From Methanosarcina mazei S-6 (GTDB lineage: Archaea; Halobacteriota; Methanosarcinia; Methanosarcinales; Methanosarcinaceae), in assembly GCF_000970205.1 (NCBI RefSeq), contig NZ_CP009512.1:3410001-3474000 (forward strand): DNA of 64,000 nucleotides, read 5' to 3'. This document shows positions 29,470 to 41,051 of the stretch, piece by piece. The position numbers were made by a program, and so were the translations under genes. The notes beneath the pieces were generated by a model. It ran no database searches. It was not told the DNA's origin and saw only the letters and a program-made list of their open reading frames with translations. How positions within the stretch are numbered: position 1 is the stretch's first letter; every line of letters begins with the position of its first letter.

Positions 29470-29703
29470 TCAAACCTTTTTCCTTAATTCCTCATACATT
29501 TCCCGTGAAATCCTGCTCTGCTTCAGGATTTCTTTGATCAGACCAGTGCCTAAATCTTCATTTCCATGAACAGGCACTACAGTCTTTCTACCGTCAGGAT
29601 GAACGTATCTCACATGGCTTCCAACCTGATACACCTTTTGAAAGCCAAGCATCTCAAGTATTTTACACATATCCCTCCCGCTTACAGGAAGGAGTCTGCT
29701 CAT
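29470..29703 (-). CDS. hicA: HicA-type toxin (mRNA interferase)
   Basis: A 77-residue double-stranded-RNA-binding-like fold toxin. The catalytic region QVGSHVRYVHPDGRKTVVPVHGNEDLGTGLIKEIL holds the G-S-H motif with the active His and the conserved P-x-H-x-x-x-x-L-G-x-G-L. It would cleave mRNA ribosome-independently when free. It follows its antitoxin gene with a 4-base ATGA overlap (29700-29703), the usual coupling, although the antitoxin is first. Confidence 0.92.
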   Translation of the reverse strand: MSRLLPVSGRDMCKILEMLGFQKVYQVGSHVRYVHPDGRKTVVPVHGNEDLGTGLIKEILKQSRISREMYEELRKKV

Positions 29704-29927
29704 ACTTTTACCTCCACCTGCTGGATTCCAATAAATTTCAGCGGCAAAACATCTTCAAGTTCCTCAGCCTCAAGACAAACCTGTATCGCTTCCCTTATAC
29801 GTTCCATAGCCTGTTCCACAGTTTTTCCCTGCGTATAACAACCCGGTATGTCAGGAACCTTTGCAACGTATACACCATCTTCGTCCTGTGCGATCAGAAC
29901 CGTATAATTCAAGCTCTTGCCTTCCAT
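29700..29927 (-). CDS. hicB: HicB-type antitoxin
   Basis: A 75-residue antitoxin from the ATG at 29927; the frame runs 27 codons further up but only from the promoter-like repeat. It has the partial RNase H fold of HicB: YTVLIAQDEDGVYVAKVPDIPGCYTQGKTVEQAMERIREAIQVCLEAE. The C-terminus is short and lacks a DNA-binding helix-turn-helix or ribbon-helix-helix, so autoregulation may need another protein. Bases 29771-30057, covering its first 52 codons and promoter, are repeated exactly at 32221-32507. Confidence 0.92.
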   Translation of the reverse strand: MEGKSLNYTVLIAQDEDGVYVAKVPDIPGCYTQGKTVEQAMERIREAIQVCLEAEELEDVLPLKFIGIQQVEVKV

Positions 29928-30057
29928 CTTTACCGGAATAACATTTAATCTGTGAGTATTTAAAGTTGTTACTGGCAGGAGTGAAGATAAAACAGAGCCG
30001 AAAACCATCGGAAGCAGAAGTGGTATAACTTTTTCATTATATTTCCACCCCAGCCCC
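29771..30057 (-). repeat. 287-bp exact duplication, first copy
   Basis: Identical, by direct comparison of the lines, to 32221-32507. It includes the hicB promoter and the first 52 codons. The exact match implies a recent copying event or continuing gene conversion. Confidence 0.95.
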
Positions 30058-31607: not shown

Positions 31608-31898
31608 CTAGAGGACTTTTGCTTCCCTTTTAATCCCATCAATTAGATAAGGGCTTATCGACTCTTCGGTAAGCAAATCGACCTTTAACCCAAGAAACTC
31701 TGATAGCTCCCTTTCAATTCTTACAAGGTTTAACAGACCTTTTGTTTCGGAAAACTCCACAAGAATATCAATATCACTTTCCGGCTTTTCTTCTCCTCTT
31801 GCATAAGAGCCAAAAACAGCTACTTTCGTTGCTCCTTCTTTTTCAAGGAAAGAAGAGATTTTTTCGAACAACTCTTTGTGCCGGTCAGCATTTTCCAT
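31608..31898 (-). CDS. MNT-type nucleotidyltransferase (orphan antitoxin)
   Basis: A 96-residue minimal nucleotidyltransferase. The signature G-S-x-A-R-G-E ... S-D-I-D-I-L-V-E-F (VAVFGSYARGEEKPESDIDILVEF) holds the catalytic Asp pair. These proteins normally act as antitoxins of HEPN ribonucleases by adding AMP to them. No HEPN gene is found on either side: downstream on the minus strand lies the convergent DUF3467 gene after 82 bases, and upstream only the frameshifted small gene. It may act on a HEPN protein elsewhere or be a remnant of a degraded pair. Confidence 0.9.
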   Translation of the reverse strand: MENADRHKELFEKISSFLEKEGATKVAVFGSYARGEEKPESDIDILVEFSETKGLLNLVRIERELSEFLGLKVDLLTEESISPYLIDGIKREAKVL

Positions 31899-32191: not shown

Positions 32192-32212
32192 TAAAAAATA
32201 CTATTTGTGTTA

Positions 32213-32377
32213 TTAAGCTTCAAGACAAACCTGTATCGCTTCCCTTATACGTTCCATAGCCTGTTCCACAGTTTTTCCCTGCGTATAACAACCCGGTATG
32301 TCAGGAACCTTTGCAACGTATACACCATCTTCGTCCTGTGCGATCAGAACCGTATAATTCAAGCTCTTGCCTTCCAT
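32213..32377 (-). pseudogene. Truncated second hicB copy
   Basis: Identical to the first 52 codons of the hicB at 29700-29927, then it runs into a stop just past the junction at 32220. It lacks the last 20 or so residues and there is no hicA beside it. It keeps the whole upstream region, so it could be expressed as a short HicB-like fragment. Confidence 0.8.
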
Positions 32378-32507
32378 CTTTACCGGAATAACATTTAATC
32401 TGTGAGTATTTAAAGTTGTTACTGGCAGGAGTGAAGATAAAACAGAGCCGAAAACCATCGGAAGCAGAAGTGGTATAACTTTTTCATTATATTTCCACCC
32501 CAGCCCC
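32221..32507 (-). repeat. 287-bp exact duplication, second copy
   Basis: Matches 29771-30057 without a difference that I can find. It lies directly upstream of the SIR2-STAND gene, with the duplicated promoter pointing away from that gene. Confidence 0.95.
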
Positions 32508-32648
32508 CCCTCAAATGCTTCAATTGAAAAGTCTACAATTTCACCGCCGTTTTAAAGATCAAGTTAAGGAACAGTTAAAAATCGCAACATTTTAAAAGTA
32601 GTATTCTCATTTGATTTTTGAGTTGTAAATAAAATAGCGGTGCTCCAT

Positions 32649-35468
32649 ATGTCAGACTCTATAAGAGCTTTAGCTAGCAGCATGGTTTCAAGGAAAATCT
32701 CAGGTGCTGATCCATATATTTTGTTTCTCGGTGCCGGAGCGTCCATAAGTTCGGGATGCTCAAGTATGATGCAAATTGTAGATTGTGTTTTGGAACAACA
32801 TGCTAAGTCAGAGTTTGAAAAATGGGAAAATGAAATTGAAAAAGCTACTAAAGAAAATAAAAAATTTGGAGAACTCTTAGGAAATGAAATTGGTAAAGAG
32901 AAACGTACTCGTTTTTTTGAGATATGGGGAACATTAGATCACGAGACTCAATATTCAATTCTTAGACCTCATTTATGGGATGACAAAAAACCTTCAGAAG
33001 GATATGAGAATTTAGCTAAACTCGTAAAAAAAGGTTATATTAAAAAGATTCTTTCAACAAATCTGGAGAATTTACTGGAAAAAGCCCTGAACAATGTAGG
33101 ATGCTACCAACCAGATGATTTTGTTGTAGTTGTAAATGGAAAAGATCGACATGAAGAGTTAGTTGAACAACTTAATTCCTCTCGCTCTTCATTAAAAATA
33201 ACAAAATTACATGGCAGCTTAGAATCTCCAAAGAGCTATGCTTTTAAGCAAGACGAAATCTCTGATTTTGCGAAGAAAATCAAGCCAGATCTTTCTCGAT
33301 TAATCAACCAAAGCCTCATTATTGTAGGATACAGTGGGCAAGACCGAGACGTTGATCTACTTTTTGAAGATGAAGGGAAAGAAATACATTTCGTGAATCC
33401 ATCAAAACCAGAAGCTGAAAGCAGAATTTCCCAGATATTGGCAGTTCGTGGAAAGGGAAAAATAATAGACGGAAACGATGGAAAATTTGATACTTTTTTT
33501 GAGAAATTACTAAAATATGTCGAACTTGAAGAAGAAAGAAGTAATGCTTCAGATTCTGAACCCTCAATAGAAGGGTTTTTAAGAAATATAGGTTTTGGAA
33601 AAGAATTAGAAAATCCTCGAAGTCGTTACAAAAATTTAACTTCCCTTTACGTAAAACCAACAGAGTATAATGAAATATGTTCAAAACTCGAAAAAGATCA
33701 TGTAATATTCATAATAGGAGAGCCTCATTTAGGTAAAACATATACTGCAATCCATTTACTCTGGGAATACTACCAAAAAGGCTACGAAACTCTTCATATA
33801 AGGCACGATAACTTAGTTACACGGTTACATGAGAATGAAGGTAACCTTACAAATCTCCTTTTATCCTTACTGTCTTCTAAAGATGGAAATCCTGTAATTA
33901 TTCACTTTGATGATCCCTTTGGTGAAACGATGGAACGTCGAACAGACGAGTTTGCCAAGGGATTAAATGATTTTTTGTTATTATCCAAGAAATATGAGCA
34001 TTTGAGAATTATAGTAACCACTAGATTGAATATATTCAGAGAAGCTCTGGCTGAACAAGATTGCCAAAATATTGAAGGACTTGAGAAAGATCTGAGAGTT
34101 CATACCTCATATAAATCGGAAGTTCTGGTTGATATTTTACATAGATATACTCAGTTTTACAAACCTCTTTGGTCAACAGACGAAAAAATAGTTAGAGAGC
34201 TGGATGAAAAACTACCAAAAATGCTTCCAGCTCCTCACAATATCGAATTCTTTGTAAGAACCTCAGAAAGGCTTACCTCCTTAGAAGAGATATTTCAACA
34301 TGTGGATAAATCAAAAGAGATGATTAAAGCTCTCGGAGAATGGATGGCAAGCTTATCTGACCATGAGCAGATCTTCCTGACGTGGGTAGAAATACAATCA
34401 ACCTCAAACATACTCTTTACAAATGACTCTGCATCTAAAATAAACCTTGAAGATGCTTATAGAGAAACTTTAGCTTTTTTGTATAAAAGAAGATACATAT
34501 TTAGCATTCCTCCAAGTTCATTTTCAGTTGACAAAGATAAGTTTGATATGATACTTTTGGAAAGTAGAGAAAAAGATTCAGATGTAAGTAAATTTGACTT
34601 TGTACACCCTTCTTACCATGAAGCTTTTTGGTACGCCATAAAAGAGGAGTCAAGATTGCTTTATTGGTGGAGAGTATTAAAAGAAAACTTAGCAGGGATA
34701 TTGGATGACTTGGATAATAAACTGGATCGCGTCCAATTACGTATAATTGAAAATTACGGGACAGTAAATAGAGATTTAGATAAATTATTACTTATTTCAG
34801 CAGAAAGTGAAGATGTTGACGAAAAGGTTATAGCTCTAAAGCACATGATGGAAAGAATCGAAGTATTTGGAGAATCTTATTCATTTTCTTCTTGTATGGA
34901 AGCTGTTATTTCAGCACAAGATCCAAAACATAGAATGGTACTCGTAAACTTACTTCCCAAAAACTTCAGCACTTTGCCTCCGGGAATTATTGATAAGTCA
35001 ATGTTGCTCCTCGTTGATCCCGAAAAAGAAGTTAGGAATAGATACTGGGAGATTTACTCAGACAGAATCGAAATAATTGATAAGCTGGAAACAAATCCAG
35101 AATTTAAGCTAGGAAGGTTAGTAAAAAAAATTCAATTGATAGAATTATTAAATAGGCACCTAAATAATAAGTCAATAGAAATAAAAGTGATAAATAGATT
35201 TCTTCAGATTACCCTACCTGAATTCAAAATAGTATTTAAGAATAATTTAGAACTTGGATACGATTTAACTCAATATGCTTATAGCAGCGGGGGAATCTTG
35301 CGTCGAAGCCTATCTAATACACAAAAGGAAAACATAAAATATATTGAAGAGTATATTATAACAAATTTGCACGATGATCGTTTCCTACAGAAAAGAAGTG
35401 CTAGATTAGTAGTAAATGCATTAGAAAGAGCGCGAATGAATAAAACTAGAGCTACAATGAAAAAATGA
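32649..35468 (+). CDS. SIR2-STAND ATPase, predicted antiphage defence protein
   Basis: A 939-residue protein from the ATG at 32649, which has GGTG six bases upstream. Residues 22-290 are a SIR2-type NAD-binding domain: GAGAS at 28-32, STN (Asn138), LHG (His188), VGYSGQDRD at 226-234. Residues about 330-560 are a STAND-type P-loop NTPase of the nSTAND3 type: GEPHLGKT at 357-364, Walker B VIIHFDD with Asp421/422, TTR at 457-459. The long alpha-helical C-terminus (about 600-939) probably senses the trigger. By analogy with Avs/ThsA-type systems, activation would deplete NAD+ and stop infection. The gene is visibly more A/T-rich than its housekeeping neighbours and lies among toxin-antitoxin and repeat remnants. 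Confidence 0.8.
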   Translation: MSDSIRALASSMVSRKISGADPYILFLGAGASISSGCSSMMQIVDCVLEQHAKSEFEKWENEIEKATKENKKFGELLGNEIGKEKRTRFFEIWGTLDHETQYSILRPHLWDDKKPSEGYENLAKLVKKGYIKKILSTNLENLLEKALNNVGCYQPDDFVVVVNGKDRHEELVEQLNSSRSSLKITKLHGSLESPKSYAFKQDEISDFAKKIKPDLSRLINQSLIIVGYSGQDRDVDLLFEDEGKEIHFVNPSKPEAESRISQILAVRGKGKIIDGNDGKFDTFFEKLLKYVELEEERSNASDSEPSIEGFLRNIGFGKELENPRSRYKNLTSLYVKPTEYNEICSKLEKDHVIFIIGEPHLGKTYTAIHLLWEYYQKGYETLHIRHDNLVTRLHENEGNLTNLLLSLLSSKDGNPVIIHFDDPFGETMERRTDEFAKGLNDFLLLSKKYEHLRIIVTTRLNIFREALAEQDCQNIEGLEKDLRVHTSYKSEVLVDILHRYTQFYKPLWSTDEKIVRELDEKLPKMLPAPHNIEFFVRTSERLTSLEEIFQHVDKSKEMIKALGEWMASLSDHEQIFLTWVEIQSTSNILFTNDSASKINLEDAYRETLAFLYKRRYIFSIPPSSFSVDKDKFDMILLESREKDSDVSKFDFVHPSYHEAFWYAIKEESRLLYWWRVLKENLAGILDDLDNKLDRVQLRIIENYGTVNRDLDKLLLISAESEDVDEKVIALKHMMERIEVFGESYSFSSCMEAVISAQDPKHRMVLVNLLPKNFSTLPPGIIDKSMLLLVDPEKEVRNRYWEIYSDRIEIIDKLETNPEFKLGRLVKKIQLIELLNRHLNNKSIEIKVINRFLQITLPEFKIVFKNNLELGYDLTQYAYSSGGILRRSLSNTQKENIKYIEEYIITNLHDDRFLQKRSARLVVNALERARMNKTRATMKK

Positions 35469-35484
35469 AAATGGGTTTTAAAAA

Positions 35485-35619
35485 TTACTTAGGAGTCGTC
35501 ACAGAACAAACAATGCACAGGTTTCGATTGGATGTCTTGATTTTCAAGATCATTATCACCAATTGAAAATTAACTTTATGAATAATCTGCCTAATTTATT
35601 TTGTGACAGTTACTTAGGA
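35485..35619. mobile_element. 115-bp MITE-like relic
   Basis: TTACTTAGGA at 35485-35494 and again at 35610-35619 flank a 115-bp segment whose ends are partly inverted: gtcgtcacaga... on the left and ...ttttgtgacag on the right, sharing gtcaca. No coding capacity. It lies 16 bases after the SIR2-STAND stop. The long 10-bp direct repeat is suggestive of a target duplication, but the terminal repeats are weak. Confidence 0.45.
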
Positions 35620-35695
35620 AAATAATTTTATAATTTGAAAGTTGAAGATTTAAAAGTAATTGAATACTTCAAAGATGTTTATTCCACTCACACAC

Positions 35696-40730: not shown

Positions 40731-40860
40731 GACCCTGTGAACTTAAAGTCCAATCCTGCGGCTGAAAGCTGCAAGCCTGAATTATAAGGAATAATAACCG
40801 TTTATAAGCCTGATTCCTGACATTTATTTTTTTCCATAGATCCATGCATCTTATATAAAC

Positions 40861-41051
40861 ATTGAGAAATATTGAGAGACATTGAGAATATTGAGAGACA
40901 TTGAGAATATTGAGAGACATTGAGAATATTGAGAGACATTGAGAATATTGAGAGACATTGAGAATATTGAGAGACATTGAGAATATTGAGAGACATTGAG
41001 AATATTGAGAGACATTGAGAATATTGAGAGACATTGAGAATATTGAGAGAT
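40861..41051. repeat. Ten-copy 19-bp minisatellite
   Basis: The unit attgagaatattgagagac is repeated nine times in register from 40881 to 41051, preceded by one 20-base variant at 40861. Copies are identical except the first and last. Within each unit attgaga occurs twice. Nineteen is not a multiple of three, so it is not selected as protein. It separates the lysS upstream region from the stop of the PocR-PAS kinase. Confidence 0.97.

Follow-up and report, generated by a model that had tools for sequence, protein, structure and literature searches.

The window, that is, the whole 64,000-nucleotide stretch of Methanosarcina mazei S-6 DNA that was analysed, contains a gene that we consider probably to encode an Avs5-type intracellular virus receptor of an archaeon, built from a SIR2 effector, an nSTAND3 switch and a helical sensor and exchanged in a slot bounded by lhr and hicB. 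The frame is open and intact for 939 codons from the ATG at 32649. The features of the gene and of the slot are given in Table 1.

Table 1. Features of the SIR2-nSTAND3 gene and of the lhr-hicB slot (positions in the window; G numbers denote genomes)
Feature	Position	Strand	Evidence or remarks
Truncated hicB copy	32209..32507	-	99% identical to 29759-30057
Left flank of slot (hicB remnant side)	32216..32533		84% identical to G075 and G077 over about 310-320 bp; cargo there is a different receptor
Variable segment of slot	32534..35694		Not conserved between strains; holds the SIR2-nSTAND3 gene alone in the window's genome
SIR2-nSTAND3 receptor gene	32649..35468	+	939 aa, apparently monocistronic; lhr convergent downstream, hicB remnant upstream on the opposite strand
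SIR2-like NADase effector module, residues 1-305	32649..33563	+	Pfam, profile, AF2, Foldseek
GAGAS NAD-binding motif, residues 28-32	32730..32744	+	Invariant in alignment A1
STNLE (TTNxD-type) motif, residues 136-140	33054..33068	+	Asn138 (catalytic) retained; Glu140 in place of Asp, codon 33066-33068
HG motif, His188-Gly189 (KLHG 186-189)	33210..33215	+	Motif positions checked
Low-confidence linker, residues 301-333	33549..33647	+	pLDDT below 50; SIR2-module homology stops and receptors are swapped here; G099 junction at its start
nSTAND3 NTPase domain, residues 334-501	33648..34151	+	Pfam PF20720, E=9.9e-18, over curated cut-off
Walker A GEPHLGKT, residues 357-364	33717..33740	+	Motif position checked
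Walker B IIHFDD, residues 417-422 (HFDD 419-422)	33897..33914	+	Motif position checked
TTR, residues 457-459, candidate sensor/arginine finger	34017..34025	+	Role inferred from Avs5
All-helical C-terminal region, residues 502-939, predicted sensor	34152..35465	+	Model; alignments
Right flank of slot, from lhr stop codon	35695..35868		84-90% identical to G075, G077, G082 and G099

The original prediction was of an intact SIR2 NADase-type domain joined to an nSTAND3-type ATPase, and the motifs named in it (GAGAS, Asn138 and His188 in the first; GEPHLGKT, HFDD and TTR in the second) are all where it had placed them. Pfam SIR2_2 (PF13289) matches residues 133-241 over the curated cut-off (E=9e-10), and a divergent alignment of relatives shows no variation at Asn138, His188 or Gly189. 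The structure prediction that had been suggested as a check was run on the SIR2 module with 21 related archaeal sequences. The resulting AF2 model (pLDDT 85, pTM 0.84) has anti-phage SIR2 NADases as its nearest PDB folds: the best Foldseek matches are EcThsA, the SPARSA SIR2, BcThsA, DSR2, SIR2/HerA and KomC, with a TM of about 0.6 (range 0.5-0.64 by query length). In a profile search of solved structures the module matched the SPARSA SIR2 (E=1.9e-7) and KomC (E=3.7e-5) best. The PADLOC hits were limited to models for SIR2, Ago-SIR2 and candidate defence, together with mads_8, and the Ago-SIR2 matches are confined to the SIR2 part (residues about 14-240). There is a second SIR2 protein, of 545 aa, in the window's genome (G000:C1:1580260-1580679; L020:7235-8869). 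It is a strong match to the candidate defence family PDC-S65 (E=8.7e-50), and IS66-like transposase ORFs directly adjoin its gene.

The region downstream of the ATPase had been described as a helical sensor. It is all helical in the full-length AF2 model, which was built on a 12-row alignment and is of low confidence (pLDDT 61), too weak for describing the sensor; this model agrees with the helical part of the claim, and the sensor role is assigned by analogy. Foldseek with the same weak model gave DSR2, ThsA, SAMD9, SPARSA and Avs4, of which the SAMD9 match counts for the Avs5-type reading because SAMD9 is a reported relative of Avs5. A search of a viral fold library was uninformative, giving AAA+ clamp loaders and a single phage protein that carries an NLR-like label.

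The full-length protein is present in two of the 112 family genomes, the window's own and G104 (79% identity). Identity between these two copies is about 90%, dropping to 21-67% past residue 720-730, and dN/dS is 0.15 for the SIR2 part, 0.08 for residues 306-560 (nSTAND3), 0.16 for residues 561-730 and 0.28 for residues 731-905, where dS also climbs to 1.25. In this single pairwise comparison the SIR2 and nSTAND3 parts look to be under purifying selection. The C-terminal residues up to about 727 also align with other nSTAND3 proteins, and residues 731-939 diverge fast. Such divergence would fit a diversifying sensor or replacement by recombination, two histories that a pair of sequences cannot separate.

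The original prediction also drew attention to the T-N-x-D motif, in which the usual Asp is replaced (STNLENLL), and raised the possibility of an altered active site. The replacement is real and specific to the window copy. The codon is GAG, compared with GAT or GAC (Asp) in all four close relatives, and in a survey of 30 further archaeal SIR2_2 proteins Asp occupies the position in every one of the 22 in which the motif was found. An alignment of 21 rows likewise has near-invariant Asp in this column. In PaAvs5-1 the substitutions N110A, D112A and E202A each abolish defence (PMC12931631); the effect of D112A makes the activity of the Glu140 copy uncertain. It may be, then, that Glu140 impairs the window copy and that this is a decaying or decoy allele, with fold and sensing kept and little NADase activity. 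We think this unlikely. The reading frame, GAGAS, Asn138, HG and Walker A and B are intact, Asp to Glu preserves the charge, and the apparent purifying selection on the SIR2 and nSTAND3 parts speaks against decay, although a recent loss could not be dated from one pair of sequences. As a natural variant, Glu140 can be used to test the TNxD aspartate.

Some SIR2-fold proteins transfer ADP-ribosyl groups, and Glu140 would lie where nicotinamide chemistry is controlled in sirtuins. The SIR2 domain could on these grounds make or transfer an ADP-ribose product, as a signal or a protein modification, rather than simply deplete NAD+. However, the nearest folds, including SPARSA, DSR2, ThsA and KomC, are all defence NADases, and no separate signal-responding effector gene adjoins the receptor gene, so that we regard this alternative as very improbable. 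For the Avs5-type receptor that we favour, the activity, the trigger and the oligomerisation are modelled on Avs5, DSR2 and ThsA. The STAND ATPase would be inactive in the resting state. On infection the C-terminal region would bind a viral protein, and nSTAND3 would then bind ATP and oligomerise. The N-terminal SIR2 domains would be brought together and would convert NAD+ to ADP-ribose and nicotinamide, and virus growth would be halted.

nSTAND3 is found in 18 of 393 genomes of the same phylum, and among the nSTAND3 loci inspected there its pairing with SIR2 occurs only in the window's genome and G104; the other nSTAND3 proteins have different N-terminal domains. Within the genus, the alignment to the best-matching proteins (P0006-P0009) spans nSTAND3 and the next 150-220 residues. 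Two scans of genome contigs and a tblastn search against plasmids and phages revealed no full-length relative; two rhizobial plasmids had matches to nSTAND3, but these were weak.

Several nSTAND3 proteins (L016:7953-10436, L017:9702-13727, L018:8059-10797, L048 and L051) have a common N-terminal domain ('YIDILGF...DDWLL...EIAIGTG'), and three of them carry long arrays of helical repeats of about 32 residues. This domain has no Pfam match and no informative PDB match; by eye it is cyclase-like, but its identification as a class III cyclase was dropped when a PDB profile search gave no support. The L016 and L018 genes adjoin RAMP genes of type III-like CRISPR loci, the latter locus also having a repeat-like array and Cas1, and the L017 gene adjoins type I restriction-modification operon-like genes. 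Separately, one protein (L091:1-2196, in G062) is a SIR2 domain fused to an ORC-CDC6-like ATPase.

The SIR2 module itself recurs on other receptors. In three larger proteins the N-terminus is 58-62% identical to residues 1 to about 305 of the window protein, and the remainder is unrelated by BLAST: P0002 (1530 aa, G075) and P0003 (1532 aa, G078), which are NACHT-like receptors with NACHT/nSTAND3-weak matches, and P0004 (1442 aa, G099), an nSTAND_NTPase5-weak receptor. At the level of sequence, one SIR2 module is therefore joined to three receptor types: nSTAND3, NACHT-like and nSTAND_NTPase5. From residue about 304, P0004 shares 70-82% identity with receptors of G082, G075 and G077, whose own N-terminal domain is a different one, about 146 residues long. 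The module in G099 is joined in frame, at the same slot as the window gene, to a receptor that is 81% identical to proteins with the other N-terminal domain. In the G099 DNA the similarity to the window extends as far as the linker codons for SDSKP, after which the match is to G075/G082. The G099 assembly is fragmented (220 contigs, 79% complete), and this one fusion protein could be an assembly chimera. Module exchange stands without it, since the remaining pairings come from near-complete assemblies of one or two contigs: SIR2 on nSTAND3 in the window's genome (G000) and G104, and on a NACHT-like receptor in both G075 and G078. The strains thus form a natural set in which one SIR2 effector is found on three receptors and one receptor is found with two N-terminal domains, which makes the independence of effector and sensor modules directly testable.

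A further N-terminal domain, of roughly 120-146 residues, begins the nSTAND_NTPase5 receptors of the lhr slot (L023:347-4201, L030 and L034) and also the nSTAND3 protein P0009 (L019:7706-8075; 30% identity). It is a candidate effector or adaptor common to receptor types.

With regard to the genomic setting, lhr was found in 25 of the 31 genus genomes and the DNA 3' of lhr was read in all 25. The window gene, the G099 fusion and the receptors of G082, G075 and G077 directly adjoin lhr in the same orientation, and a hicB-like ORF then follows in the window, G099, G082 and G075; diverged hicB-like ORFs lie near lhr in ten strains. The flanks of the slot are mostly 84-92% identical among Methanosarcina-like genomes (the right flank is 84-87% identical to G075/G077 over about 165-175 bp) but the cargo differs. 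In other strains the place near lhr is taken by an ORC-CDC6-like protein next to a CARF6-like protein (G098; L024:6787-9377, genes overlapping), an ORC-CDC6-like protein (G081, G086), a Mrr/TIR-like protein (G084), a PLD/NgoFVII-like protein (G102) or a reverse-transcriptase fragment (G076), and some have nothing comparable there. The original prediction was to be judged by whether related genomes hold the gene in a defence context, and the lhr-side site does carry STAND receptors and other defence-type cargo. Neither this check nor the structural one overturned the prediction. The G104 copy is away from lhr, but its neighbours are genes that other strains carry downstream of lhr, so that its slot was probably split from lhr by rearrangement.

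The window gene was correctly predicted to be A/T-rich and to have toxin-antitoxin and repeat debris in its flanks. Its G+C is 0.337, compared with about 0.47-0.51 in the nearby lhr/lysS region. HicA/HicB lie at 29470-30008 and a single MNT-type nucleotidyltransferase at 31608-31898, and the hicB region at 29759-30057 is duplicated over 299 bp (99%) to give the truncated copy listed in Table 1. Elsewhere in the window, at 40859-41050, there is a 19-bp tandem repeat of ten near-perfect copies (99% matches). Since 19 bp do not make a whole number of codons, several frames are open with a repeating peptide, and these are probably not a gene.

The proximity of HicAB, the hicB remnant and the MNT nucleotidyltransferase could point to a cellular or toxin-antitoxin role, as a regulator or a HicAB-associated addiction gene, instead of virus defence. 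This is extremely doubtful: the hicB copy borders the slot also where another receptor is the cargo, the toxin-antitoxin genes are on the opposite strand, and the receptor gene is patchy, unlike a housekeeping gene. HicAB was likewise rejected as a functional partner, since hicB lies at the edge of the slot irrespective of the cargo. The comparisons between strains show that whole receptors and, separately, their effector modules are exchanged at the slot, probably by recombination through conserved flanks; conservation of the lhr and hicB flanks points to homologous recombination as the route. More tentatively, the lhr-hicB slot of Methanosarcina may be an allelic receptor locus in which the halves of STAND proteins, effector and sensor, are reassorted through the flanks and the inter-domain linker, as an archaeal counterpart of NLR modular diversification.

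Among known systems, DSR2 and ThsA have a fold like that of the SIR2 module (TM about 0.6), but neither published protein is known to have an nSTAND3 switch, whereas the SIR2 domain described here is predicted to be driven by a STAND ATPase. A plain DSR/ThsA homologue was rejected because of the nSTAND3 domain. Thoeris ThsA has its SIR2 domain linked to a SLOG/STALD sensor and works with a ThsB TIR partner; in the window protein it is nSTAND3 that follows SIR2, and there is no TIR gene among the annotated neighbouring ORFs. SPARSA (SIR2-APAZ/short pAgo) and KomC are the closest sequence-profile matches of the module among solved structures. The sensor is a guide-loaded Argonaute in SPARSA and the Kongming dITP signal in the case of KomC. 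The Ago-SIR2 matches of the window protein fall in the SIR2 part alone, and no Ago was found among its neighbours. The G104 orthologue (L015, P0005) has the same architecture over its full length but the standard TNLD in place of TNLE.

The closest counterpart is Avs5. Bacterial Avs5 (AVAST type 5) consists of SIR2_2, nSTAND3 and C-terminal helical repeats, has SAMD9 as a reported eukaryotic structural relative and hydrolyses NAD+ on activation (PMC12931631). Domain order is the same in the window protein, also within a single gene (PF13289 effector, PF20720 ATPase and a C-terminal region predicted to be helical), and this agreement with published Avs5 supports the original interpretation of a single-gene SIR2-STAND protein resembling Avs5, ThsA and DSR proteins. 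Additionally, its Walker A shares residue numbers 357-364 with the GPAGSGKT of PaAvs5-1 (PMC12931631). Of the SIR2 motifs of Avs5, GAGxS is present as GAGAS and the HG or NG motif as HG, and TTNxD reads STNLE with its Asn retained. The window protein differs from Avs5 in its archaeal host, in TNxE instead of TNxD and in a C-terminus with no TPR, Sel1 or PPR family match in Pfam, and from PaAvs5-1 in having HG instead of NG and, in Walker B, the canonical DD. Searches of PADLOC and NCBIfam with E values up to 1 gave no model that bears the Avs5 name. Given this result and the differences in TNxE and the C-terminus, the label 'Avs5-type' refers to architecture and not to clade: the protein is assigned to it by domain order rather than by a tree. 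Avs5 has been characterised in bacteria, against jumbo phages. An archaeal build of this type in an exchange slot is a defined case for STAND sensing and its diversification in archaea, and what it adds to the known Avs5 kind is an allelic slot with swapped effector and receptor modules and the unique Glu140.
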